Source of the DNA: Norana najaformis
Taxonomy: Eukaryota > Annelida > Clitellata > Crassiclitellata > Hormogastridae
NCBI GenBank assembly: GCA_964023275.1
Contig: OZ029921.1
Location: 1,023,501-1,087,500 of the forward strand
Length of the DNA stretch: 64,000 nucleotides
Direction of reading: 5' to 3'
The notes under the pieces were generated by a model that saw only the letters and a list, made by a program, of their open reading frames with translations, did no database searches and was not told where the DNA came from. The position numbers and the translations under genes were made by a program. This document shows positions 1-63,900 of this stretch, piece by piece. Within the stretch, counting starts at the first letter, position 1; each line of letters opens with the position of its first letter.

Positions 1-240
1 ATCACGATTCTTCCTCTTTCCCTTATCTCACTTTCCAGTTCAGTTCCAAACATCACCACCACCACCCAATAGACGTCTGACTGTCTGCCTGCCTAAATCT
101 TGGATCTTGACCTGGAACCGAACCCTACTTGTCAGTCGATTTTGTTTTGACCGAACGCCTGTGAATAAGCTGGTTCCCGCAACTTAACTTTCGTTGGGCG
201 CTGTAGAAATCTCGAGCTTACGACTACGATTGCATACTGT
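1..240 (+). mobile_element. Non-LTR retrotransposon family B, 3' end (copy 1)
   Basis: The stretch has the family B 3' signature: TTGGATCTTGACCTGGAACC, a GATTTTGTTTTGAC block, GTGAATAAGCTGGTTCCC, then GGGCGCTGTAGAAATCTCGA and a GATTAC-like tail. The same blocks recur in this order at about ten other places in the window. It is 5'-truncated by the window edge. Confidence 0.75.
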
Positions 241-244
241 AGTC

Positions 245-625
245 GTCTATTATTCAAGCTGTAAACTCCCCCTAGAACTGCGACAGTTTTCTGACCAATC
301 ATACAAACTCATCGATGCTCCACCGCTTGCAATTTCTGCTTCGGTCTTTCACTCAAAACTCAAAACATTCCTCTTTCACAGATCCTATCCTGACACCCCG
401 TCTTCCTCTTATCTGTCTCTGCTCTCCAACCCCAAATACCACCCACCGTAGCTGCCACGCTGTCTCTCCGTCTGACTCTTGGATCTTGACCTGGAAAGAT
501 CTTGACCTGGAACCGAACCCTTTCGCCTATCGATTTTGTTTTGACTGAGCGCCTGTGAATAAGCCTGTTCCCGCGGCGCGGCTTTCGTTAGGCGCTGTAG
601 AAATCTCGGAATTACGATTACGATC
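245..625 (+). mobile_element. Non-LTR retrotransposon family B, 3' end with RT-ORF tail (copy 2)
   Basis: This is a longer family B copy abutting copy 1. It includes a coding remnant reading FHSKLKTFLFHRSYPD, the LKxxLF-type C-terminus typical of non-LTR reverse-transcriptase ORFs. The family B 3' UTR signature and GATTAC tail follow. It ends about 40 bp before the start codon of the death-domain/SH2 gene, so that gene's promoter or upstream exon lies beyond or inside this repeat. Confidence 0.75.
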
Positions 626-664
626 AGTGATTCTATTTCTTCTGGTAGCTCGCGAGACTGCACG

Positions 665-3600
665 ATGACCGTCGACTTCTTCTACGACCTGGACCACCTC
701 GTCCGCGAACTACCGGACACGGCGTTGAACGAAATCGGGCAGCAGCTGACGGGCACGATGCCAGGTCGTGACTGGAGGACGATGGGAGCCGAGCTGAACT
801 ACACGATGGCCCAGATGGACGTTTTTGCGCCCCTGCGGACACCCGGGTATCAACTGCTGAGGGACTGGTCGACGAGGGAACATACTACGATCAGAGTTCT
901 CCGATCAAAACTCATTTTGATTGGGAGATACGATCTCGTCACAATGCTCGACGATTTCAGACAAAGTAATACGCCGCATACGATTACATTAACTTTAAAC
1001 AGATGTACAAACAGGCGTTTAATATGTAATCCGTTGAGGCCCTGGCGATATCATGAATGTCCAAATCTGTTCTACATATAATCTTAGAACTTCTGTAGCG
1101 CCATTCTAATACTGAACGAGGCATCAGTCAGTGGTCGCTGTTCAGTTCAACTGATATGCATGCCGAGGCTTAGGGTGAGTCCAATCAAGTAAAGTATCCC
1201 ATATCACACAAGTGAGACGTAGGGGAGGTGCTCATTTCCTTTTCTTTAGGCCCTTGAGCCGGCAGTGGACGAATCCCAAGGTCCTGGACACGGGGTCAGT
1301 GCATCGCAGGACTTGCCGTTTACTTCCCAGTTTACACCGGTGCCAAATTACACCGCTTGGTGACAGAGGCACGGTGTGCGCAAACAACTTGCCCAGGAGT
1401 CGAACCCACAACCGCATGACCATTGACCAAAGGCATTACCGATAGACCACCGTGGCGCACAATCAATAGCCAAGAGGAAAATTCGAAAAGACGGAGGGAA
1501 TGACTCCATGGTTTCTTTCTAGATCCGATGAACCTGGATGTGGTGATCCACGATCGGGGTTCCCCGTTCTACACCGGAAGTGGCTATTCCCTCACACCGG
1601 AAATCAGAGGCCGAAAGGAATTGTGGGATGGACTGCTCCCATGCCTTAAAACCTACGTGTCCTCAGCGACGTGCCCGCGAAGATACATGTTCTTCAACCT
1701 GCGTGGATTTTCCTGGCAGAACCAGTGCTGTGATTACCGGGTGAGCTCACCATTGTTTTATTGTTTTATTGTTGTTAGTGTTATCAGCGTTAGTGTTATT
1801 AGCGTTAGTGTTATTAGTGTTAGTGTTATTATATTCTAATGTTAATTGTAATCTGAAACTGTGTAGCACCGTTTCAAGAGAAACTGATGACATGCGCTCT
1901 CTGTGCTGTAAATGTAAATGTACACGGCTTTATATAGCGACTGTATTAATCATCGTAAACTTGAGATTTCTACAGCGCCCAACGAAAGCTAAGTTGTGGG
2001 AACCTGCTTATTCACAGGAACTGAGTCAAAGCAAATCGATTAGCAGGTTCGGTCCCAGGTCAGTATCCAAGAGTCAGGCAGGCGAGCAGTCAGACGGCTA
2101 CGGTGGGTGGTGTTTTGGAATTGGATCTGCAGGATCGATAAGGAGAAGAAGAGAAATCAGGATAGGATCTGCAGAAGAGGAGTGTTTTCAGTTTCGAATG
2201 GAAGACCTGCGCAGGGATTGCAAGTGTTGAAATGACGGTGGATCAGATAATTGTCGTCATTCTGGTGGGAGTCTATTCCAGCGGGGTGAAGCTCGACTCT
2301 GCTCATCATTTTTGCAATGAATTAATTGTCGGGTGAGATCCTTCACCACCGCAGCCCGTTTGAATGGGCGCCACGCCGTTTAAGGTCCCCATATACGGAC
2401 CGTGCTAACCCGAGATTCAAGTCTCTGAAATAAGCCACGAATATGACTCAAATCTCCGATGGCTCACGAGGTTCCTGTGCTTTGGCAGTGGTCAGTGGTC
2501 AGTGAGTGTGCGTAGGTAGAATCGCATGGGAGGGAGAGTCCTTATTAACAGGGCGATTGATATTTGTTCAACAGGGTCAGCAAGTGGATATAGATGTCAG
2601 GCGCCAGGACACAACGGTAGGGGTTAGAAACCGGCTTCTTAGTATGCACGAATCGTGTCGTCGTCATCACTGTCATCGTTATCATCATTCATCGTCGACA
2701 TCGTCTTCATCATTGTGATCATCATCATCACCATTGTCGTCGTCTTCGTCGTCATCATTCATCATCATCAGTTATCATTATTATTATCATCAGCATCTTG
2801 GTTTTTGATTGGATTCCCATTGAATTTGTCTTCCATGCCTGTTTCTTCTTAGCTGCGACCATCGAGTGATGCCTTGAGCCTTATTACAGTGGCGCTATAG
2901 AAGTACTCGGGTTATTGTTACTTGAATATTTATTTCTGATTGCAGCCAGCAGGTTCTCCACCAGGTTTTGACGTCAGGCAAGTGGCGCCATCTTGGCATC
3001 TAATGAGCCCAACCCAACTGAGGTACACACGAACTGATGACGCACCGCAGAACGGCAGAGCGTCATCAGATGACGCCAAGGTTTCCTCAGGTGGCACCAA
3101 ATTCAACCCGAAAACCAAGACCACGTGGAGCGGAAGTCAAGAACCTGGAGCTGGATGGGAGTCAAGAAAGAGCAACAACCCTTTGACGAGGGTTACTCAG
3201 CACCCTACGCAGGAATCGGCTGCTTACGTGGACCCGAAAAGTTCGCAGAAGTCGACGAATCATGTGTATTTTTCTTGCATGAAAGAAGCTAATGGATGTC
3301 TCAATGAAAATAAAGGTTCCTTAACTCGCGAGTCTTTGACACTTGCTCTTGAGACTTCGAAACAATCATCTGCCATTGAACCTATGAAAGAGTCCCTTAA
3401 CCTTGACCTTAGAAGTATGGAAGATCCGTCTGATCCTCGGGAACTTCCTCAAGACGAAACCACAAGGCAGACAGCGCAGGTACATGACCTTGACCTCTGC
3501 AACACAGACAGGTCATCTGGACTCCAGGAGACTGACAAGGAACCTAGGTCCAAGCTTTCGACGATATGTCTCAGGAGTGAGGGTACTTCGCCGGACAATC

Positions 3601-6228
3601 AGAGGCCGGGGATTCGAGGCCAAGAGGGCTTCTCAGCTCTCATGGTTGCCATGGCACCGTCTTCGTCTGCTGGAGGACCTGGAGAGGGAGCTGAACAGGA
3701 GCTGGTGGAGCTGCGAGAGAATGATCCACTGCTAGAAAATGAGGACTCAGTGTCTGAAGGAAGAGCCGTAGAGGATCTTTTAGAACAGCAGCCGCATAGG
3801 TACGAATTACAAGATCAAATACAGGCGCTCCTATTGATCGATCGATCGATTGATTGAGTGATTGAGCGATTGATTGAGTGTTTGACTTATTTATTTATTG
3901 TTGTAATGGCTTGTTCACACGTTAGTTCGTTCGTTCTTTCATTGAGTGTTAAGTAATCATTACTCCATCTCTGCGTGTAACGGTAATTCTACGTGGTACA
4001 TAATCACCATATGATTTTACGTTACCTTACAATCGGTTACAATACATTACAGGGGCCATTGACTGTTTTCTGTAGACTCAGGAGACGTCACGTTTACTTT
4101 CTGCCCAAACTGGAAACCATCCTGAATCAATTTCCAGGATTGTCGGACTTACCCGGTTTTCATCCAAGGTTAAAACACAAAAGTAGTCTTGTAAGTATCA
4201 GCAAAAATATTAATATATTTATTAGGGCTGTTAACGATTAATTTAAATTTAATAGTTAACTTTTGAAAAATTAACGATTAATTAATAGTTAATTTCGATT
4301 AAAGCCAAAAATTAAAATTTATGGTGTCATAAGTAACATTTATTAAACGTACTTGTCGAAAATCGAAATAACACTGGAATGTCTCCTTCATATGTCATCT
4401 TTTAACCAACTACGCAAACAGACAAGTGTGTTGACATTATTTGGTTCAAGTGATGAGCGGGTCTTATTGCCACTGCTAGCAATCCAATTTGCAAGTGCCA
4501 CTTTAATATCACGCTGTAAAGTAACGCTGACTGGACGATCTGATGAACGACAAAAGTGACTCAAAGTACCCTGCTTCGAAGTAGATGAAGTAGATGATGC
4601 TGGTGTAGACTGTCTCAGCGGAAGTTTCTGATACTGTAGTGGATGTTTGGTTTGCAGGTGATAAGTAAGCGAAGTGTTAGAACCATGGTAGGCAAACGAT
4701 TTCTCACAATGGATACAATAAACTTTATCAACATTTTCAACATTCCCGTCAGTCAATAGTTTAAAACCAAAATGTTCGTGTAATCGTCCGGAAATTTGTT
4801 TATATTTCTCGGCCGCCATTTTTTTACTTTTTGACTTCCGGTACATTTGTAAGTGATGGGTCGATTAATCGTTAAAAAAAATTTAATCGTTAAAAAATTT
4901 TGACGATTAATCGATTAATTAATCGTTAACTTTTGCAGCCCTAATATTTATTACGAGTTTGTGTTGTGTAAACAAACATTAAATTTTTTGATTCAGCATC
5001 TAAATGCATGTCGAGAACTATTATTAGAAGCATTAGCGAAATAGTAATTGATTGAGAAAATAGGGGAAGTTGGAGTGGTAGCGAAACAAGAGAGGATATG
5101 GTGCATAAACCTCTTACGTAGCAAAATTTAAATGTAAATGTACACGTTTTTCTATAGCGACCGTGTGGCCTCGACGCTGCTCATTTTTCAGTGAATTCAT
5201 CGGGTGAGATCCTTCACCACCGCTGCCCGTTTGAATGGGAGCCACGCCATTTAAGGGACAAGAGTGGATCAAGAGGCCATGTTCCCCTCTCGATAAGCTT
5301 GTCCCCGCGACTTAGCTTTCGTTGGGCGCTATAGAAATCTCGAGCTTACGATTACGAAATCCACCTACAGGTATAACATCGCGTAAGCAGTAATTGTAAA
5401 ACTTCTGTAGCGCCAGTTCTGTTGTTTTGCGTTGTAGATACGCGAAGTGATGAAGCCGTTCGATAAGGCGGACGGTTGGTACCTCATCCGGGTCTTTGTT
5501 TCCGATGAGAACTTGGCCAAAGTCCACCTGGCACTCACCGTTACGTATGTATGCCTACCTGTCTGCTAATGATGCTTTATCAGGACTTCTATAGCGCCAC
5601 AGTGTTACTTTACAACGCATACATTTCAGTCACGTAAACGTCATCGTCATCGACGACATCATGATCAATAAATATCATCATTGTGACTCAGTGTAAATGA
5701 TCTGGTTTTCTGGATGCTGACTTGGCTGCGGCTTGGTTTTGGTGCGCCATCAGTTGATGCCTTGTGCATTAGAAACCAGCGCTATAGAAGTTACTGTCAT
5801 CGTCGTTGTCGTCATCATCTCCACCAGCATCATCATATAATAACAGTATTGTTTTTCGCATTTATATAGCTTCTGTACATTCTTTCTTATTGTTTCATTC
5901 ATTCATTCAGAGATTAATGCAGGATATGCCGATTGATGCTTAGTCATTAGGTAGTGGCGCTTAATAAATGCAAAAATTGTAATATCTTGTTCGCTTGTTT
6001 TTCTTGTGTAGGTATAAAGGCAAGCTGAAACACTTCGAGATTCTTCGTTACCCGGATTCGAATCCTCGCCACTATTTCCTCTTCAGTCGCGACTATGAGG
6101 CTAGTTCGATCTCGGACCTAATCGATCATTACAAAATCCATCCACTGGTTCCAGGAAGTTTGTCAGTCAGCGGAACAAATCTACCGAAACTCATCAATCC
6201 GGTTCCAAGTGACTCTTTCAACTATTAG
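665..6228 (+). CDS. Death-domain / SH2-domain adaptor protein, 7 coding exons, complete
   Basis: Exons: 665-965, 1523-1740, 2575-2616, 2946-3799, 4076-4190, 5438-5544 and 6012-6228. All have GT-AG boundaries and the phases join without a stop, giving 617 residues. Residues about 8-97 form a death domain of MyD88/IRAK type (DWRTMGAEL, then LLRDWST, then IGRYDLV). Residues 101-471 are a polar, Ser/Thr/Asp/Glu-rich linker with a YVDP site at Y281, a possible Nck/Crk/Vav-type SH2 ligand. Residues about 474-612 form an SH2 domain: GWYLIR carries the phosphotyrosine-binding Arg (R528), followed by YKGKLKHFEI and SSISDLIDHYKIHPL. The SH2 and its C-terminal place resemble SLP-76/BLNK adaptors, which have a SAM domain instead at the N-terminus. 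There is no kinase or enzymatic domain, so a cytoplasmic scaffold linking death-domain receptors or MyD88-like proteins to tyrosine kinases is inferred. The 42-nt exon 3 and residues 101-187 match no family I know. A possible acceptor at 647-648 suggests an upstream non-coding exon. Confidence 0.85.
1080..1135 (-). mobile_element. Family A retrotransposon tail fragment (intron 1)
   Basis: ACTTCTGTAGCGCC followed by GAGGCATCAGTCAG is the reverse complement of the family A 3' end (GATGCCTTGTGCATTA, then GCGCTATAGAAG). Only the last 50-60 bp are recognisable. Confidence 0.55.
1205..1462 (-). mobile_element. tRNA-derived SINE (type 2), copy in intron 1
   Basis: On the minus strand the element begins GCGCCACGGTGGTCTATCGG, a box-A-like RNA polymerase III segment, and carries GTGGGTTCGACTCC, a box-B-like segment, about 50 bp later. 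A family-specific body follows. A second copy in the same orientation lies at 31918-32180. The spacing and both boxes support a tRNA-derived SINE; I did not fold it as a functional tRNA. Confidence 0.7.
1766..1834 (+). repeat. 15-bp minisatellite
   Basis: About four tandem copies of GTTAGTGTTATTAGC with few differences, directly downstream of the exon 2 donor in intron 2. Confidence 0.85.
1960..2130 (-). mobile_element. Family B retrotransposon 3' end (inverted copy)
   Basis: GAGATTTCTACAGCGCCCAA, AAGCTAAG, TTATTCACAG and a degraded CCAAGAGTCAGGC block are the reverse complement of the family B 3' signature. It lies in intron 2 of the death-domain/SH2 gene. Confidence 0.75.
2270..2405 (+). 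repeat. Dispersed repeat family C, copy 1
   Basis: The stretch GGTGAGATCCTTCACCACCG followed by CCCGTTTGAATGGGCGCCAC recurs at 5155-5262 and, inverted, at 37125-37245. I see no coding potential or terminal repeats. It may be the 3' part of another retroelement. Confidence 0.7.
2655..2790 (+). repeat. Degenerate TCATCA/TCGTCG microsatellite
   Basis: Trinucleotide-like TCATCA, TCGTCG and ATTATC units fill part of intron 3, between the 42-nt exon and the long linker exon. Confidence 0.85.
3832..3888 (+). repeat. GATC/GATT tetranucleotide tract
   Basis: GATCGATCGATCGATT passes into GATTGAGT units just after the exon 4 donor. The open reading frame of exon 4 runs into it by chance, but the GT at 3800 gives the only downstream join in phase. 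Confidence 0.8.
4215..4951. mobile_element. Non-autonomous hAT-type DNA transposon with 8-bp target duplication
   Basis: The element spans 4223-4943 (721 bp). It starts TAGGGCTG and ends with the exact inverse, CAGCCCTA. It is flanked on both sides by ATATTTAT (4215-4222 and 4944-4951), an 8-bp duplication typical of hAT insertions. Inside the termini are AT-rich subterminal blocks built on TTAACGATTAAT in opposite orientations. The interior encodes a BED-finger remnant on the minus strand but no transposase catalytic core, so it must be mobilised in trans. It sits in intron 5 of the death-domain/SH2 gene. Confidence 0.9.
4388..4846 (-). pseudogene. BED-type zinc-finger remnant of a hAT transposase
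   Basis: The 152-codon frame contains a BED finger: CIHC supplies two cysteines and YHLQTKH supplies the H-x4-H pair, the order and spacing seen in ZBED and hAT transposase N-termini. A Ser/Thr-rich linker and a short helical stretch follow, then the frame stops well before any RNase-H-like catalytic domain. This is the N-terminal DNA-binding piece of a transposase kept in a non-autonomous element. Whether it is translated cannot be told from sequence. Confidence 0.65.
5120..5265 (+). repeat. Dispersed repeat family C, copy 2
   Basis: It shares GTGAGATCCTTCACCACCGC and CCCGTTTGAATGGGAGCCAC with the copies at 2270 and 37125. Upstream lies the shared TGTACACG, then TATAGCGACCGTG. Confidence 0.7.
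5290..5360 (+). mobile_element. Family B retrotransposon tail fragment
   Basis: AAGCTTGTCCCCGCGACTTAG followed by GGGCGCTATAGAAATCTCGA and a GATTAC tail: only the terminal 70 bp of family B. Confidence 0.65.
5570..5800 (+). mobile_element. Family A retrotransposon tails (intron 6)
   Basis: A minus-strand snippet at 5580-5600 (GACTTCTATAGCGCCAC) and a plus-strand 3' end at 5700-5795 (TGATGCCTTGTGCATTAG, then GCGCTATAGAAG) flank an ATCATC-rich segment. More ATCATC repeats continue to about 5840. Confidence 0.6.
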
Positions 6229-6231
6229 GAT

Positions 6232-6254
6232 CCTAACCCTAACCCTAATCCTAA
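6232..6254 (-). repeat. Interstitial telomere-like CCCTAA units
   Basis: Four consecutive CCTAA/CCCTAA units begin 3 bp after the stop codon of the death-domain/SH2 gene. They match the animal telomere repeat on the complementary strand and mark the 5' junction of the family B copy that follows. Confidence 0.7.
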
Positions 6255-6605
6255 ACTCCCACCAGAATTACGACAGTTATCTGATCCATCGTACGAACTC
6301 GCCATTGCTTCACCTCTTGCCATCTCTGCACAGGTCTTCCACTCAAAACTGAAAAGACTCCTCTTCCCGCAGGTCCTATCCTGATTCCCCTTCTTCCCCT
6401 TATCTATCCTGCAGATCCAATTCCAAACACCACCCACCGTAGCTGTCTGACTGCCTGCCTGTCAGATTCTTGGATCTTGACCTGGAAGCGAACATTTCTT
6501 GCGTATCGATTTTATTTTGACTGAGCGCCTGTGAATGAGCTGGTTCCCGCGACTTGGCTTTCGTTGGGCGCTGTAGAAATCTCGTGTTTACGATTACGAT
6601 TACTT
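6255..6605 (+). mobile_element. Family B retrotransposon 3' end with RT-ORF tail
   Basis: It has the same order as copy 2: a block beginning AAACTCCCACCAGAATTACG, a FHSKLKRLLF-type C-terminal coding remnant, the CTTGGATCTTGACCTGGAA block and GGGCGCTGTAGAAATCTCG, with a GATTAC tail. It probably supplies the 3' UTR or polyadenylation region of the preceding gene. Confidence 0.75.
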
Positions 6606-7075
6606 CAAGCAATAGGAATTGAGCAAAACATTTGAAGTTACCATACCTCACCTTTGTAGAACTGAGAGGTACTTAGATGGTCTGTATAAGTATCCAATTA
6701 CATAATTACATAATAAAATACATACCAACACCTTACCATACCATAATTTACCTTTGCAAAGCGTTTCTTATAGATTCCTTCCACCAATAGGAGACTCGCG
6801 TATCGGAATTACACTACACCCAACTGAAATTCATCTTTCTTTTAAAATAGGTTCTTTGAAATTCTATCTACCATTAGGAAACATACTATACCATACCTAA
6901 CTTTATTATTTATAATTAATCTTGCCCTGTCCGATGCATAGTTAAAAACTGTAAACTTCATAATCGTTTATTTACAGTTATTTGCAAATACAACCATTTC
7001 CGAAGTTGCAACTTTTGTCCGCAATTGTTAACAGGTCATTCAGATGTCGGTTAAAGGTCAAGGAGTCAAATGCGC
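6606..7075. other. No gene seen
   Basis: AT-rich spacer with loose CCTTACC/CATACC words between 6640 and 6900. No open frame with recognisable protein character and no terminal repeats seen. Confidence 0.5.
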
Positions 7076-7079
7076 AAGA

Positions 7080-7485
7080 ACTGGCAAGGCAAGGTATTAA
7101 GGTAAGGTATGCTAAGGCAATGTTAGCTAGAATAAGGTAAGATAAAGTAAGATAATGTAAGGTAAGATAAATTAGGATAATGTTAGCTAGAATAAGGTAA
7201 GATAAAGTAAGATAATGTAAGGTAAGAAAAATTAAGATAATGTTAGCTAGAATAAGGTAAGATAATCTATCTTACCTTTAAGATAATGTTAGCTAGAATA
7301 AGGTAAGATAAAGTAAGATAATATAAGGTAGTATAAGCTAAGGTAAAGTAAGGTAAGATAAGCAAAGGTAAGATATGCTATACTTACTTAAAGAAAGGTA
7401 AAGTCAGGTAAAGCATGGCAAATTAAGGTAAAGTAAGGTAGACTAAGGTAAGACAAGGTAAGGTAGGATAAACTAGGGTAAGCTG
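7080..7485 (+). repeat. AAGGTA/AAGATAATG minisatellite
   Basis: Pentamer-like AAGGTA words are interleaved with about four copies of a longer unit containing AATGTTAGCTAGAATAAGG. The opposite-strand motif (TTACC, CCTTA) forms separate arrays at 8440, 35290 and 42390. Confidence 0.85.
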
Positions 7486-7489
7486 AAGG

Positions 7490-7765
7490 ACTTAGTTTCT
7501 TTGGGCGCTGTAAAGTCTCATGTTTACGATTACGACTGAATTACGTGTAAGACTTGTTCATTTTCAGCCCAGTTCGTAGTTTTCATATCGTCAGTTATCC
7601 GAAACTATCACCTACTTAATTCGACGATATTTGCTTTTGCGTCCATCCACGTGAGACTTCCGTAAACTATTAGCACTGACGTCGGTCACGGAAGAGTCGG
7701 TGCAATTATAAGTCCAGGGTATTGATTAGGAATCGCGTAGTATTAAGGAGATATTGACAGAAAAC
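7490..7765. other. Family B tail snippet, otherwise nothing seen
   Basis: TTTGGGCGCTGTAAAGTCTC with a GATTACGAC end at 7495-7535 is a 40-bp family B terminus. The remainder is unremarkable. Confidence 0.5.
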
Positions 7766-8085
7766 TTAGACAGACAGACAGACATACAGGCAGGCAGGCT
7801 GGCCGGCTCGCTGACTGGCTGGCTGACTGACTGACTGACAGATATTGTGTATATAGATTGCCTAAGTATTTGATACCGTAGACATAGAGACTAACAGAAA
7901 GACAGACACATACACAGACAGACAGACAGACGAGTGGACAGATAGATTAACAGACAAGGAGATAGATAGATATAATATAATGATAAATAGATTAACAGAT
8001 AAGTAAGTATTAGATGCTGTAGTCGAGCAAGCAGACACACAGACATACACCAAGACATACAAACAGACAGAGAGAGACAGATTGG
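7766..8085 (+). repeat. GACA tetranucleotide region, imperfect
   Basis: AGACAGAC, GGCAGGCTGGC, CTGACTGA and AGATAGAT blocks are mixed with short unique spacers. Confidence 0.85.
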
Positions 8086-8435
8086 AGACCAGAAGCGGTA
8101 GGTCTAAGATCTGAGGAAGAACCATTCAGGCGAAACAGAACGGACGGAGGGGATCGGTTAAGTGTCGACCCGAGTTTCTCGGTCTCGGTACTTCTATTCC
8201 TATCGTCTCGGTTTCGTGGAATTTCACCGAAATAGATATGTTGATCGTGGCGAAAGCGAGGCCGATGTTGGGCCTCGCCGGAACTACGTCATCGCTCGGT
8301 GGAATTTCCCGTCGTAGTTCTCGGAGTCGTCACTAGGCGGTTCATTTGGCGCACTGCAAACAGTCAGAGAAATCGTTTATCTTAGTTGCAACGCATCCAG
8401 GATTTAAAATTCGATAGGAATATGTATGAGTGTGT
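8086..8435. other. No gene seen
   Basis: Moderately GC-rich unique sequence (TCTCGGTCTCGGTACTTC; short GGAATTTC repeats in both orientations near 8215-8310). No convincing coding or RNA feature. Confidence 0.4.
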
Positions 8436-8439
8436 GTCT

Positions 8440-8900
8440 TATCCTATCGTGCTTTGCCTTTGCCTAGCCTTATCTCGCCTTATGCTGTTTTACCTAGCCT
8501 TGTCTCACCTTATGCTGCCTTGCATAGCCTTATATCGCCTTATGCTTAGTCTTATCTCGCCTTATGCTGCCATGCCTAGCCTTATTTAGCAATTTCCTGC
8601 CTTGCCTATCTTTATCTCGCCTTATGCTGCCTTGCCCATCTTAATCTCCCTTTATGCTGCCTTGCCTATCTTTATCTTGCCTTATGCTGCCTTGCCTAGC
8701 CTTATCTCGCCCTATGCTGCCTTGCCTAGCCTTATCTCGCCTTGTGCTGCCTTGTCTATCTTAATCTTGCCTTACTTTTTACTTACGTCACCTAATTTTC
8801 TTTCATTGTGCGTCATCCTAGAATGAGTTTCACTTATTTTAGCAGTAAATTGCCTCGCGTTGCCTTTCGTTACTTTACCTCACCTGACCGTAAATCTGTC
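8440..8900 (+). repeat. CCTTATCTCGCCTTATGCTG minisatellite
   Basis: About ten imperfect tandem units combining TGCCTTGCCTAGCC and TTATCTCGCCTTATGC, about 30 bp each, decay into CCTTACC words at the right edge. Long open frames here are artefacts of the repeat. Confidence 0.85.
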
Positions 8901-9290
8901 AGATTCTGAAATAGTTTTCCCTTTTATCCAGTTCCCCTCCGCCCTCTTCTTAAGAACCCGTCGCAAATTGGACAGCTGAATAATTGTTTTCGCTCATAAC
9001 TCCTCTCCCCCTCCTTCCTCTGTCTCTCTGCCTCTCTGTCTTCGTCTCTCTCTTTGCCTCTATCCCTCTGTCTGTCTGTGTGTCCGTCTTTCTACCAGCG
9101 CTTCGAAATCGAATAACGAAGTCGGTCGCGAAGATCCAATTCGTCATCGAATTCCTTGAGCCATGCGTTACGATGGCTGCTGGCTACATGAGCCATATGG
9201 CTGTCGCCCGCCACGTCCAAGCCTTATGGCTATAGCCACAGGCAGTCGTTATACAACTGCTTGACGTAAATTCGCTACTTCTTCGCTGCA
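8901..9290. other. CT-rich tract and spacer
   Basis: 9000-9090 is a TCTCTCTGCC-type pyrimidine run. The remainder shows no recognisable gene. Confidence 0.4.
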
Positions 9291-46639: not shown

Positions 46640-47740
46640 TCAGTAGATCTCCACGCAGTTTGACACACCAGCTCGCGTCGTCAGCGTGGCCTTAAGGAAT
46701 GGCTTCGACGACTGACGGCATCGGTTGAGACAGACATCTCGAAAAGTCTTTCGAAACTGTCGACTCATCGTGCAGTAGAGAACGAAATTGATCGCGCTGT
46801 TCAGCAATCCGAGGAGGTCCCAGATGTCCCCGAGAGGGACGTAGACCTCCTCGAAGACGGCCGTGTCAATTCCGCTGAGGAAGGCCAGAACCCCCTGCGG
46901 CAGTTCGGCAAGCACGAAGCACAGCACGACGGCTACGAGCATGGCCGTCGTGCGGCAGTGTTCGTTGGCTCGCTCGGACTCGTTCTTCCGACCGAGGGAC
47001 ATGAGTCTTCGCCGCTTCCGGTCGGCTGTCCTCATGGCCTGGATGAGCAGGGCGCTGAGGACAGTCAGCAGGACACACGGGGCCACCTTGAGGACGACCC
47101 CAAACAACCAGAAGTTGAAAGCCGTGTATGCGTTGCCGACAAAGGCGTTCCACTCGAACCAGTATCCGCCTTCGCTGCGCAATACCAGCCGGTACTTGAC
47201 GTAGTTCGGTACGCAGACGATGGGAGTGGCAGCGTAGACTGCCGCAATTGTCAGCCGGGCACGGCGGACGTTGCAGAGGCGCGACCCGAGGGTGTGGTGA
47301 CAGACTGTGATGTAGCGGAAGACCGCGAGGGCCACCGTAAGCCACATGGCGATGGTGTGCGTCGTGATAGTGAAGTTAACGTTGAAGAGCATGTAGACGA
47401 TCCAGCCCTTCGGGTGCTTGAAGGTGGCGTCTGGAACGGCCAGGCAGTTGAAGTAGACGGCGTAGGGCAGATAGGAGAGCATGGTCAACGCGTCGGCGAT
47501 AGCCAGGGCCGTCAGTAGATGGTTCGTGGGAGTGGCCATGTTCTTCCGGGTCAGAACGACGATGTTCGTGAGATTCGAGGCGATCCCGAAGAGGCACAGA
47601 GCCACGCTCAGGTATCCGTGTACGCCCTGGTACCAGAGACTGAACCGAGTCAGGACAGGAACCCATTCCACCCCGTCGTCCTTTCCTTCCATCTGTCCAT
47701 CAAGAATTTCGCCACACGTCGTCAAGTTCTCGTCGGTCAT
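46640..47740 (-). CDS. Peptide GPCR, dmsr-1 / myosuppressin-receptor-like, single exon, complete
   Basis: A 366-residue rhodopsin-family (class A) receptor of the plasma membrane. N-glycosylation site NLT lies at residue 5. TM1 (about 43-63) has the N-x-L-N-IVVLT motif. The first loop reads MATPTNHLLTALAIADALTM, typical of the dmsr/FMRFamide/sex-peptide-receptor group. TM3 ends in FRY (141-143) in place of DRY. TM6 has CFVLAELPQGVLAF (274-287), where the family has ELP instead of CWxP. TM7 ends NSAINFVLYC (314-323), replacing NPxxY. C94-equivalent and ECL2 cysteines are C99 and C176. The likely ligands are myosuppressin or FLP-like neuropeptides, with Gi/o coupling in described relatives; that is family knowledge. 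The start ATG is the first in frame. The 1.1-kb high-GC frame has no introns and stands out against AT-rich surroundings. No neighbour shares its function. Confidence 0.9.
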   Translation of the reverse strand: MTDENLTTCGEILDGQMEGKDDGVEWVPVLTRFSLWYQGVHGYLSVALCLFGIASNLTNIVVLTRKNMATPTNHLLTALAIADALTMLSYLPYAVYFNCLAVPDATFKHPKGWIVYMLFNVNFTITTHTIAMWLTVALAVFRYITVCHHTLGSRLCNVRRARLTIAAVYAATPIVCVPNYVKYRLVLRSEGGYWFEWNAFVGNAYTAFNFWLFGVVLKVAPCVLLTVLSALLIQAMRTADRKRRRLMSLGRKNESERANEHCRTTAMLVAVVLCFVLAELPQGVLAFLSGIDTAVFEEVYVPLGDIWDLLGLLNSAINFVLYCTMSRQFRKTFRDVCLNRCRQSSKPFLKATLTTRAGVSNCVEIY

Positions 47741-48094
47741 TGTTGGGTCTTAGGTGAACAGCAGGCTGGGCGATAGTAGCTGGATCAGCGGAGCGGTTCG
47801 TATGGAAGTCAACATTTCTTACGATTCAACCTGTAATGTAATCATAGACGTAAAGTAGTTTAAATAGCCCATGTGAAAAGCCTGAAATTAGTGCAGATGT
47901 AATGCAAAGGAGAATTTGCACGATATCACTTGCCAAAACAGCTTCAGAGGCATTAGCTAAGGGATGCAGCAAGTGGAATTACCAGTGATCTCTCGCTTCT
48001 TTTGATCCGTATATATGAGGAGAGGTTTTCCGATTGTTAAACTGATGCCTTTTTTGCGCTTCAGCTTACATATCCTTCCTTTCGTATATCTGCC
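47741..48094. other. Upstream region of the GPCR gene
   Basis: Should contain the GPCR 5' UTR and possibly upstream exon or promoter. No TATA box or clear splice acceptor identified. Confidence 0.35.
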
Positions 48095-53347: not shown

Positions 53348-56300
53348 ATGTGGGACGGCGGTAATAACTGGGGCTACTGGCCCATGCAGCAATCAGCCTA
53401 CAGTAATGTTCCGTCAGAACAAGGCAAGTCATTTTCCAATCTTATCTGGAAGCTTCTATAGCGCCGTTATCACAGTGCACTAGACATCTATCCATGGTCG
53501 CATGAGAATTCTAAAACTATTAAAAATATAAAATTAATGAATAATAGGTAAAACTGTATTAGGTTTACGGAAAAACTGATTTACTAGAGCATGTTATGAT
53601 AGCTTGTGTTAACTGTAGCAACATTAATGTATGTATAGCGGTATCCGGCATTTATGTAGCACCTTTTAACAACTTCGTAAAGTAGCTGGAATGTTGCATA
53701 TTTTGAATGACAGAATCCCGTTTAATAATTGAGTAACTTGTTATTTGTGATGCATCGTTATTCTTACAAAACCTTCCATCTTGCCTGTCTTTGCAGTTGA
53801 TTGGGCCATGTTGGCCAAACAGTGGATAGCACAGCGTGGAATGGTAGGAATGGGGCCATCGGAATATCCCCAACCTCCTGGAACGGCCCCTCCACCGCCG
53901 CTTCCTCCCGTCAAGCCAGAGCCGCCACCTGGACCAATTGGCGAAGTGTCATCCGGAGTAGGTGGGAGCACGTCCCAGCCGCCTCCCCAGTCAGTGATTA
54001 GCTGTGATATGGAGAACTCCAATTCGCAAGGTATGTACTATGGGTTTGCGTGAATATGTTGTCATCATTGGTGTTGTGCTTGATTCTTTTTTAGTTGTCA
54101 ATGACGATTGTGATTACGATTATGATGGTTATTATGATAATGATGATGGCAAAGTTTCTTCCTCAGTAACAATTCAAGTGGTTGCCTTTAAGGATTTTGA
54201 CCCCAATTCCGATGATAATAATGTTTTTCACTCGAGTGTGATTGTTGTTAATGAAGGCAAATATGATTACAGTGATGACTAAATGATGACTATAATTGTC
54301 GATGATGATAGAGGTTATGAGTACAATGATGATGACATTATCTGTTGAGATTTATACAATTCATGGTTGGAAAGAAATTCATGGTAAGTAATAGAACGAG
54401 TTGCTATATAAATTTCTGTTATGGCTACATCACACAAAAGCCTCCTTTTACCATCCAGTTCGGTAACTTGATGTGTATTACAGTAAGTTCGCTGTGAAAG
54501 TTTCCAGATGTGACTTCGTGGTCAGGATATAAATCTCAGAGATTGAATTGTTACTGAACCTCATTTTAATGAGGTGCTTGTGACAGCCAAAGTTAGCATT
54601 ACACATTGGTTTAAGGGGAATGCTAAAGCATTCTCTTTAATTGTGAAGAATTGTGAGTTGAAGCATGCTGATTATTTTCGTATGACGAACTTCAGTTCGC
54701 TTCCAGCTTCTGCTCTTGTCTTGGTGTAGAATAAAGACATAATTTAAAAGGTGCATGTTCTCTTTTTTGTTTATGCTATTTCCATTTCAAACCATTTGCT
54801 GACTAGACATACTGTAGTGGAGTATTTCTTCAGTAGCTGAAGTTCAGACTCTTATAAGGGCAACATTTTTTCTGAAAAAAATGAACAGGATTCTTTTTTG
54901 CAGCTTCATGTCTCTGAGATTGACTGCGTATTGCCTGGTATGCTGGGCTTTCATTGCTATATTTCGAGATTTGAGTCCCAGTGCACCGAGTCCAAAATGT
55001 AATCATTTGAGCCAGAAAATCTATTCTGAATATTTGTTGAATTATTATTTTGATGTACGTACTTTGATGTTTTCAGATTCGAACTACTACCAGTCGAGTG
55101 AACCAGAGCAGGTGTCAGCAGAGGGGTGGAGTAATTGGAATGGAGCAGCCATGCCTGCTTGGGCTGTTCCGCCACCCCCACCGCCAATGGATGAAGCACG
55201 GGTATGTGAATAAATTATTGTTTAACTTATTATTATAAAATATTGCATTTTGCTGTATATTGTACAGGTATTCCTTTTTCCTGCTATTGGCATCGTGCTA
55301 TCCCTTTTCCAGATGTTAACTTCACCTATCTTTCTCCAGCTGTTAGCATCATATTATCCCTTTTTCAGCTGTTAACATAACATTATCCCTTTCCAGCTGT
55401 CAACATAACATCCCTTTTCAAGCTGTTAACGTCACATCCCTTTTCCATCTGTACAAAAATTGTTTACCGGATGATGATACTCATAACTTGAGGCTGGCAG
55501 TTAGCACCTTATAAAGGCTCTACATAAATTTAAAGTTACATTACATAAATGAAGACAGAGTACGTTTCTGTGTTTTACAGGGTAATGCCGTGTCCGAGAT
55601 GCCATACGGTGGGGATGCTGGCCAGTTCATGGGACCTTCATTTGGCTTCAGCCAGCCTTCAGGCTTCAACCAGCCTTCAGAAGATATGTACATGGGACCG
55701 GTAGGGTTGTTGTCATTCGTTGCATGTTGCTGTGACAGCTGGATGCAACGTCTTTTTAGAAGCGTTTTATTCTTTTTTGCTGGATTTAATTAGGGATTGT
55801 AAGAGATCATTAAATTATAAATCGTCTTAATACAGATTTATGAAGTGGAGCAGAAATCCAATGGGAAATGATAAAACTAGGTTGCTGAAATGGTTGAGTA
55901 GTGTGTATGAATGGATTTATGGATTTTCTCGTATCAAATTATGTCATCTGAGGTTTCACTCTTGGTTGACAAATGGAACAAACCCAAGTCACAAGCGAAA
56001 TGGCGATCTATTAGCTGCTCAATGACCGTCGCATCTCTCAGAGTTTATACCATCGAAAATAAAGTGATAAAAAAGCTGCCAAAATCATTTCATAATTGTT
56101 ATTTTCTGTGCTCTGGCGCCCTTCGTATTCTGGCAGCCTATGATTCTTCACTCAGCCGATGGGCACAGGATGTGTTAACAAATGCCTTACTGGCTGACTT
56201 ACTTACTTTGTAGTCTGGCTTTGGTTTCTCAGATGTATAAGATTTCGACTGGGTTACTCCAGCGGGTTGGAATTTTTGCCAACGATTTGATATGAAGCGA

Positions 56301-62300: not shown

Positions 62301-63900
62301 TGCAAGCAAATACTCAGAAGCATCTGTGCACAAGTACCTATTAACAAGTAATTGTGCAATGGGCTTTTTCAAGAAACAGGTCAGTTTTCAGTCCAAATAG
62401 CAGGAATTAAATGCCAGAGGCAAATGTGTCTTTGAAATGACGTCATCGAAGCCAGTGGGGTATAATCATGGGGAAATAAATGGAGACATATCTTTAACTG
62501 GAGATCATTTGAACCAGTGAGGGGGTGCACTACCTGCATGACTGAAATTTATGAGGAAATTTATCTTCAACAGAAGGTTGTCTGAAATGTCAATTTGCAA
62601 CCAGTCGATCTTTAATTGGAGTGTGGTCGCTTCTTATTTTATGACCTAACACGTTTAGTGACAAACAGCATTGACCATGCGGTCGATTGTGGATAGCCAC
62701 TGCAAGCACGTCTGCCTCACCATACTTCAGCTTACTTGTTTTGTAGAAATGGAGAAAAGGCGGCTTGCAGAGGAGCACATGAAGCCACAGAAGAACACCA
62801 GGGATGCAGAATCCTCAGATGAAGCACCGGCCTTTGTAGCAGAAACTGACGAGGCCCCTAGTAGGAAGGATAAGGAGACTGCTGACAAGCAGGCAAAGGC
62901 TAATGAAGACAGATCGAAGAAAGACGAAAAGAGAGCTCCAGAAAGAAGCCGGTCTGACAAGAAGGAACGGAATAAGAAGATTGAGGAGGAGGAGGAAGAA
63001 ACGAGCGAGGATACCAGCAGCAGTGGGTCGGAAAGTTCGAGTGAGAGTGGAAGCAGCGACAGCAGCAGCTCATCGTCCTCACGGTCGAAAAAGTCGCCAC
63101 CCAAGTTGAAAGAATCGAACCGTGGCAGGATCAAGTCGCAGGTGAGCGACGAAGCACAGGAGAGAAAGAGGGAAACCGATGAGACAGGACGAAAGAAGAT
63201 AGATGAACGCGAATCGAAGAGAAGTCGGCAAGAAAGCGGGGCGAGCCGGAAGGAACGGGAGAAGCAGAGGAACGAGCAAAGGGTAGAGGAGGAGGACCAG
63301 GACGAAGAGAGACGAAGGAGGAAGAAAAACTCGAGGCATAACAGCGAAGAAGATGAAGACGAGAAGGCCAATCAGAAGAGGAGACGATCGACGAAGGACG
63401 ACGAGCGACTGCGATCGGACGAGGCCAGGTCGAGACGAGGACAGGCGGTCAAGACTGATGACAGGGACAGTACGCGAGGACACAAGGACAGTCGAGGCCG
63501 TGGGAAGCGCAGTCGAGACGATCAGATTCGATCAGAGGACGATGACCGACATGACTACACGACTAAGACGCATGACTATGACGAGGATCAAATGTATAGG
63601 TCACAGCACAAAAAGGCCAAACGCTCTAGTTCGCAGTCGTCGTCCCGCGAGCACCCACGATCACGTCGGAGTCATGACAAAGATTCGCCTACCCCTGATC
63701 GAAGACGATCTGTGAAAGATCGACGATCATCTGATCATTATCGGGAGCGTCGGTCTTCAAGAGACAGAGATCGAGATCGGCGGTCATCAAGAGATCGAGA
63801 TCGGCGGTCTTCAAGGGATCGAGATCGGCGGAAGGAGGCGAAAGACAGGTCTGGTAAGAAGGATCGAGCCAGAGGCAGATCCAGATCGCGGTCGAGGTAA
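53348..63900 (+). CDS. PNISR: PNISR-like SR-related nuclear protein, 11 coding exons
   Basis: Exons: 53348-53423, 53797-54030, 55077-55201, 55581-55700, 56452-56641, 57939-58132, 58552-58743, 59393-59504, 60594-60647, 61910-62086 and 62747-63900. All join in phase, giving 875 residues (human PNISR is about 805). Family landmarks in order: MWDGGNNWGYWPMQQ; VDWAMLAKQWIAQR (26-39); Pro-rich and Gly/Met-rich segments; AAKRRQLPLWIREGLEKMER with a following coiled coil; an acidic SEEERLARM; LTEILLEV-like MTEILLEVTSREMV; APARQLAKSTALASITSLG (exon 9); LGYGSESSDEDGSDDD; and a 385-residue Ser/Arg/Glu/Asp-rich tail with SRDRDRRSSRDRD repeats ending RSRSRSR. PNISR is a nuclear-speckle protein associated with pre-mRNA splicing; its molecular role is unsettled. 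Intron 1 uses a GC donor. Intron 2 of 1 kb and intron 9 of 1.3 kb are unremarkable. The stop TAA overlaps a GTAAGA donor-like sequence, so a longer isoform past the window edge is possible. Confidence 0.93.
53448..53512 (-). mobile_element. Family A tail fragment in PNISR intron 1
   Basis: GGAAGCTTCTATAGCGCCGT followed by TATCACAGTGCACTAGACAT. Confidence 0.55.
55268..55452 (+). repeat. Minisatellite of TCCCTTTTCCAGCTGTTAAC units in PNISR intron 3
   Basis: Six to seven imperfect units of about 28 bp, each with a pyrimidine run followed by CAG and GCTGTTAACAT. The real acceptor at 55579-55580 lies 130 bp downstream. Confidence 0.85.
56212..56372 (+). mobile_element. Family A retrotransposon 3' end in PNISR intron 5
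   Basis: AGTCTGGCTTTGGTTTCTCA, TTTCGACTGGGTTACTCCAG, CATCAATTGATGCTTTGGAC and a TTAGATTAGATTAGATTAGA tail. Confidence 0.75.
57235..57335 (+). mobile_element. tRNA-like SINE remnant in PNISR intron 6
   Basis: TGATGAGAAGGTCTGGTGAT, then CACCCCCGGGTCATGAGTTC AAAA, then GGCCGGACCAG. The box-B-like GAGTTCAAAACTT is degraded. Confidence 0.4.
58255..58425 (+). mobile_element. Family A retrotransposon 3' end in PNISR intron 7
   Basis: AGCCTGGCTTTGGTTTCCTT, TTCAACTGGGCTTTCCCAAT, AATAATAGCGCTATTTAAGC and a TTAGATTAGATAAGA tail. Closely related to the copy at 56212. Confidence 0.75.
58800..58962 (+). mobile_element. tRNA-like SINE remnant in PNISR intron 8
   Basis: GGGTCACGGTGGTGAGGTGA (box-A-like), then CGGAGTTCGAATTCCAGGG (box-B-like). 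Confidence 0.55.
58963..59082 (-). mobile_element. Family A tail in PNISR intron 8 (inverted)
   Basis: ATCTAATCTAAAGACTTCTA, TAGTGCCGTTATCATAATGG, AAGGCATCAGTTGATGG and CAAAATCATAATCCACTCTG match the copy at 19660. Confidence 0.75.

Follow-up and report, generated by a model that had tools for sequence, protein, structure and literature searches.

Near the beginning of the window (the whole 64,000-nucleotide stretch of Norana najaformis DNA analysed here) a chain of seven exons on the forward strand splices into a predicted protein of 617 amino acids (Table 1). All seven exons are open, the six introns all have GT-AG ends, and the spliced reading gives phases of 1, 0, 0, 2, 0 and 2 following exons 1 to 6. 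The start codon has an A at position -3 and is, as judged by eye, the sole in-frame ATG of the open reading frame (ORF) 563-1081. Skipping exon 3 keeps the frame and yields 603 amino acids, and an additional exon may lie further upstream, where 20 kb were surveyed as a list of ORFs only. The seven-exon chain spliced in frame to 617 residues, as put forward in the original prediction, is confirmed at the level of the DNA, in which both domains and the exon bounds are present.

Table 1. Coordinates of the predicted gene and of other features, numbered from the first base of the window
Feature	Position	Strand	Description
Possible 5' UTR segment of exon 1	649..664	+	Acceptor-like AG at 647-648, 0.95 percentile
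Exon 1	665..965	+	Residues 1-100, with start codon and death domain; Pfam Death 29.7 bits alone
Exon 2	1523..1740	+	73 residues, kind unclassified; open frame; splice sites at 0.98 and 0.97 percentile
Exon 3	2575..2616	+	42 nt, 14 residues, phase 0-0, optional; GT-AG bounds
Exon 4	2946..3799	+	284-codon linker rich in Ser, Glu, Pro and Thr, inside a 305-codon stop-free frame
Exon 5	4076..4190	+	Start of SH2 (LPGFHPRL); frame fits exons 4 and 6
BED zinc-finger ORF	4391..4864	-	Inside intron 5; PF02892 31.7 bits
Exon 6	5438..5544	+	SH2 strand with FLVR-type Arg (R528), a column invariant in 7 aligned SH2
Exon 7	6012..6228	+	Remaining SH2, C terminus and stop; sole window ORF matched by the SH2 profile
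Telomere-like CCTAA repeats	6230..6253		Immediately 3' of the stop codon
First AATAAA 3' of the stop codon	6712..6717	+	Hexamer scan, bases 1-9000
26-mer repeat copies	189, 583, 1962(-), 5317, 6559, 18614, 37922, 42350		At most 3 mismatches
GPCR ORF	46643..47749	-	369 codons, Srw/rhodopsin type; PF10324 111.5 bits, PF00001 71.7 bits
PNISR-recalling ORF	53751..54050	+	By eye
PNISR-recalling ORF	62662..63897	+	By eye; Arg/Ser-rich

Splice sites were scored with a splice-site matrix, and the percentiles refer to all GT and AG dinucleotides within bases 21-8000. By this measure the 12 splice sites of the chain lie at 0.83-1.00 percentile, the weakest donors being those of exon 1 (0.84) and exon 6 (0.83), and the top 5% is reached by four of the six acceptors and one of the six donors, this class comprising 17 acceptors and 5 donors in the region as a whole. 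Splice scores alone are therefore insufficient to select the seven-exon chain. Codon usage lends the exons no support either, since the frame that is read ranks first of six in just two of the seven. For exons 5-7 we compared 3969 combinations of neighbouring GT and AG sites, 166 of which remain open. The predicted chain ranks third of these 166 by SH2 score (23.3 bits vs 25.7 for the best), and the ten top-scoring splicings all join base 5544 to base 6012 (exons 6 and 7), so that the junction between exons 5 and 6 is the less certain one. The matching junction phases had also been presented as an argument against chance; the phases are as described, but they carry less weight than was given to them, because frame agreement at the weak join of the chain, that of exon 2 to exon 4, is expected in one third of cases by chance, given the open ORFs.

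The N-terminal death domain is supported. Pfam Death (PF00531) scores 25.2 bits on the spliced protein at residues 33-95, against a curated cut-off of 22.6 that is also exceeded with exon 1 alone, and a 3-sequence death-domain profile retrieves just one of the 1272 stop-to-stop ORFs of at least 30 aa in the window, namely that of exon 1, with an E-value of 2.4e-14 (search at E<=10, profiles built from other proteins). The type of the domain is another matter, the MyD88/IRAK-type assignment of the original prediction being unsupported by our comparisons. With exons 1-2 as query, the top matches in the PDB set are NRADD (E 7.2e-8) and p75NTR (E 3.2e-6), the next ones being a designed protein (E 0.0026) and ankyrin-3 (E 0.0089), and BLASTP aligns the query to NRADD with 26/83 identities. 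MyD88 is absent from the 13 PDB matches at E<=10 although it is in the set (3mop, 6i3n), and BLASTP returns no alignment to it; IRAK, which may or may not be in the set, is likewise absent from these 13 matches. As a query MyD88 matches p75NTR at E 0.05-0.09, and the two death-domain classes are therefore distant kin. By sequence comparison, the domain encoded in exon 1 is nearest to p75NTR/NRADD, not to MyD88. A match of the same exon to HetR_C (E 0.07-0.18, far under the cut-off) was disregarded. A structure model of exon 1 alone, with strands plus helices and no clean helical bundle, had a mean pLDDT of 44, a confidence at which it is uninformative.

The C-terminal SH2 domain with its phosphotyrosine-binding arginine, R528, is borne out as well. 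On the spliced protein Pfam SH2 (PF00017) reaches 21.5 bits at residues 519-586, a thin margin of 0.5 bits over the curated cut-off of 21, and the fragment of residues 472-617 gives 24.6 bits; both Pfam families expected in the spliced protein are thus found above their curated cut-offs. Among the 1272 window ORFs a 6-sequence SH2 profile matches exon 7 (E 0.0066), its score rising from 13.0 to 20.4 bits upon splicing, and the matches to the two profiles lie on the same strand (+) and less than 5.5 kb apart. R528, the last residue of the stretch WYLIR (residues 524-528), falls in the FLVR-arginine column, the KHF histidine is common to five of the seven aligned SH2 sequences, and the exon 5 stretch LPGFHPRL aligns with WFHG, the sequence at which other SH2 domains begin. 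On the other hand, the usual first Trp of SH2 domains is Gly here and the helix-A Arg found in all six other aligned SH2 domains is replaced by His, so that phosphotyrosine binding may be altered or lost.

The best matches of this SH2 domain in the PDB set, SH2B1, GRB10 and PLCG1 (N-terminal SH2), are weak (E 0.005-0.03) and stand among 16 matches at E<=10 that include unrelated proteins, and for this reason no family is assigned. Identities amount to 24% with SH2B1, 27% with GRB10 and 25% with the C-terminal SH2 of PLCG1, the 16% shared with BLNK being the lowest of the six compared. The proposed likeness to SLP-76/BLNK finds no backing in these data, in which BLNK alone represents that family: BLNK (2eo6) is in the PDB set yet absent from the 16 matches. 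In the search that located BLNK in the set, the SLP-76 SH2 is absent among the 60 of 97 matches listed, and it was probably outside the comparison.

Between the two domains, exon 2 has no Pfam match at E<=10 and its best PDB match is at E 1.5. A TRADD-N identity for this exon was considered and rejected in the lack of any Pfam match, TRADD-N being found neither in residues 1-173 (E<=1) nor in exon 2 (E<=10) by a search in which a faint match could be lost to the HMMER filters. The linker encoded in exon 4 is probably flexible: amino acids classed as disorder-promoting make up 78% of it. It contains three tyrosines in 284 residues, and it shows no Pfam match and no motif clearly above shuffled sequences. 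On the whole protein, Pfam at E<=1 finds nothing beyond Death and SH2, and specifically no SAM, TIR, kinase or TNFR domain; NCBIfam gives 0 families, and there is no membrane-like stretch, the peak 19-residue hydropathy being 0.82. The layout is accordingly adaptor-like, as had been proposed, in the sense that no enzyme domain is found by Pfam.

The surroundings of the gene deserve a brief description. The 26-mer listed in Table 1 occurs in eight copies in the window, where 0 are expected, and several of them lie around and inside the gene. The BED zinc-finger ORF is probably a transposon remnant. Further away lie the ORF of a putative GPCR and two ORFs that recall PNISR, for which Pfam returned nothing at E<=0.01. 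An Rfam gathering search of the window gave 0 matches.

At the scale of the genome (608 Mb in 17 contigs), an SH2 profile retrieved 131 matches; the SH2 domain described here is missing from them, as is expected for a domain split over three exons. Paralogues were sought with tblastn, using three pieces of the protein against 30 loci. Of these, L001-L008 and L011-L030 take in 37 of the 131 SH2 matches, with L018, located between two matches, holding none, and L009 and L010 represent the 20 kb upstream. No clear paralogue appeared in these 30 loci, the best matches outside the window being at E 0.74 for exons 1-2 and E 0.11 for the SH2 exons. The exon 4 linker matched L025:8284-8532 at E 0.004 (26% over 85 residues) with composition and low-complexity filters off, a match that possibly reflects composition only. 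In the same set, CSK-like SH2 exons recognised by eye at L001, L002, L003 and L008, on three contigs, suggest an expanded family, and the six SH2 matches at L011-L016 (C8:30.38-30.62 Mb), which cover the second half of the profile only and lie on both strands within 0.25 Mb, could represent a local expansion.

The reading that we favour, with a probability of about two in three, is that the locus holds one gene for a cytosolic adaptor, in which a p75NTR/NRADD-class death domain, the 73-residue segment, the long linker and the SH2 domain would together serve kinase-linked death-domain signalling. For its first element, that exons 1-7 form one gene, the odds are put at roughly three in four, given that all exons share a strand, that their frames are compatible, that the long linker is open and that no poly-A hexamer lies in 665-3309. 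Neither AATAAA nor ATTAAA occurs in that interval, the gap 1741-2945 included; by our estimate this gap of 1.2 kb should hold about 1.3 of them, and their absence is therefore weak evidence.

Of the competing explanations the best placed, though unlikely, is that two genes lie side by side: exons 1-2, perhaps with exon 3, would encode a short death-domain protein, and a separate SH2 adaptor would start in or before exon 4. Frame agreement is the sole link over 1741-2945, an ATG is located 20 codons into exon 4, exon 3 is without independent support and too short for a test of its own, and codon usage is of no help in the matter. Nonetheless, the two parts share strand and compatible frame across just 1.2 kb, this gap is free of both hexamers, and the acceptor of exon 4 stands at 0.95 percentile. 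Considerably less probable is a decayed or unexpressed fusion, either a pseudogene or an assembly join, in which a working adaptor would have been lost. The repeats within and nearby, with five of the eight 26-mer copies in the first 6.6 kb, the BED zinc-finger ORF in intron 5, the weak SH2 score and the unusual SH2 residues would all fit such a history, but the seven exons are open, the six introns have GT-AG ends and R528 is kept. Finally, a swap that brought a death domain of Toll type (MyD88/IRAK) together with an SH2 of the SLP-76/BLNK kind is very improbable, for although both general domain types are present and the MyD88 match to p75NTR reveals distant kinship, the nearest death domains are those of NRADD and p75NTR, the nearest SH2 domains, weakly, those of SH2B1, GRB10 and PLCG1, and MyD88 and BLNK are both in the PDB set with neither matched.

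Two signalling networks that are usually linked via several proteins have SH2 domains and death domains as their respective hubs, and a protein with both domains would directly wire tyrosine-kinase signals to death-domain signalling. For the single-gene adaptor that we favour, the most likely first step would be the docking of the SH2 domain on an activated receptor or scaffold that carries a phosphotyrosine. The death domain, tethered by the long flexible linker, would then bind other death domains at that site by homotypic assembly, and a tyrosine-kinase event could in this way start or tune death-domain signalling, be it apoptosis, NF-kB or receptor crosstalk. The single transcript, phosphotyrosine binding, the partners and the output of the protein are what we infer in this proposal. 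According to PMC2575513, which cites the original work, tyrosine-kinase signalling can be rerouted to apoptosis by chimeric adaptors that pair a DED with SH2 or PTB, and these engineered proteins indicate, as far as that mention goes, that such wiring can work. It is tempting to speculate, although we consider it doubtful, that a death domain of the p75NTR class has left its receptor and, by union with an SH2 domain, provides a natural one-protein shortcut, by which receptor or Src-family kinase activity would nucleate death-domain signalling in an invertebrate lineage. If true, the protein would be a natural counterpart of the engineered DED-SH2 chimeras, it would show that the p75NTR-class death domain, the tail of a vertebrate receptor, is usable as a mobile adaptor module, and it would make testable the idea of invertebrate domain shuffling as a source of kinase-gated death or immune signalling.

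Several known systems resemble parts of this architecture. MyD88 is a cytosolic adaptor with an N-terminal death domain, a position shared by the protein described here, which differs in having no TIR domain besides the missing matches reported above. SLP-76, BLNK and CLNK combine an N-terminal interaction domain (SAM), a long linker and a C-terminal SH2 domain; the general layout is alike, but a death domain takes the N terminus here and SAM is not found. The proteins of the weakly similar SH2 domains, SH2B1, GRB10 and PLCG1, carry PH, RA or lipase domains, whereas none of these is found here (Pfam, E<=1). To p75NTR (TNFRSF16) and NRADD the likeness lies in the death domain, which matches theirs best in sequence. 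In these membrane receptors, or relatives of such receptors, the death domain is intracellular, and the receptors have a transmembrane segment and a cysteine-rich ectodomain; the present protein has its death domain at the N terminus, no membrane-like stretch, no TNFR match at E<=1 and an added SH2 domain. According to PMC2772990, p75NTR with a death domain exists in the protostome Daphnia, and p75NTR is also present in Lottia and Capitella.

Invertebrates are on record as having new arrangements of death-fold domains, described for amphioxus in PMC2575513 and also in PMC8195603. In the literature covered, with most subscription papers outside its scope, a p75NTR-class death domain combined with SH2 and without TRADD-N was not found, and phrases naming both domains together returned no papers, even though SH2 tails on sponge proteins with Death-like domains are in print (PMC8195603). 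In that paper the Amphimedon TRADD-N proteins are described as having Death-like domains, with a tail that varies and is SH2 in some of them. They differ from the present protein in the TRADD-N that follows their death domains, none being found here, but they likewise place the Death-like domain at the N terminus and, in some cases, SH2 at the C terminus (PMC8195603). The occurrence of a Death-like and an SH2 domain in one protein therefore has a precedent in a sponge.
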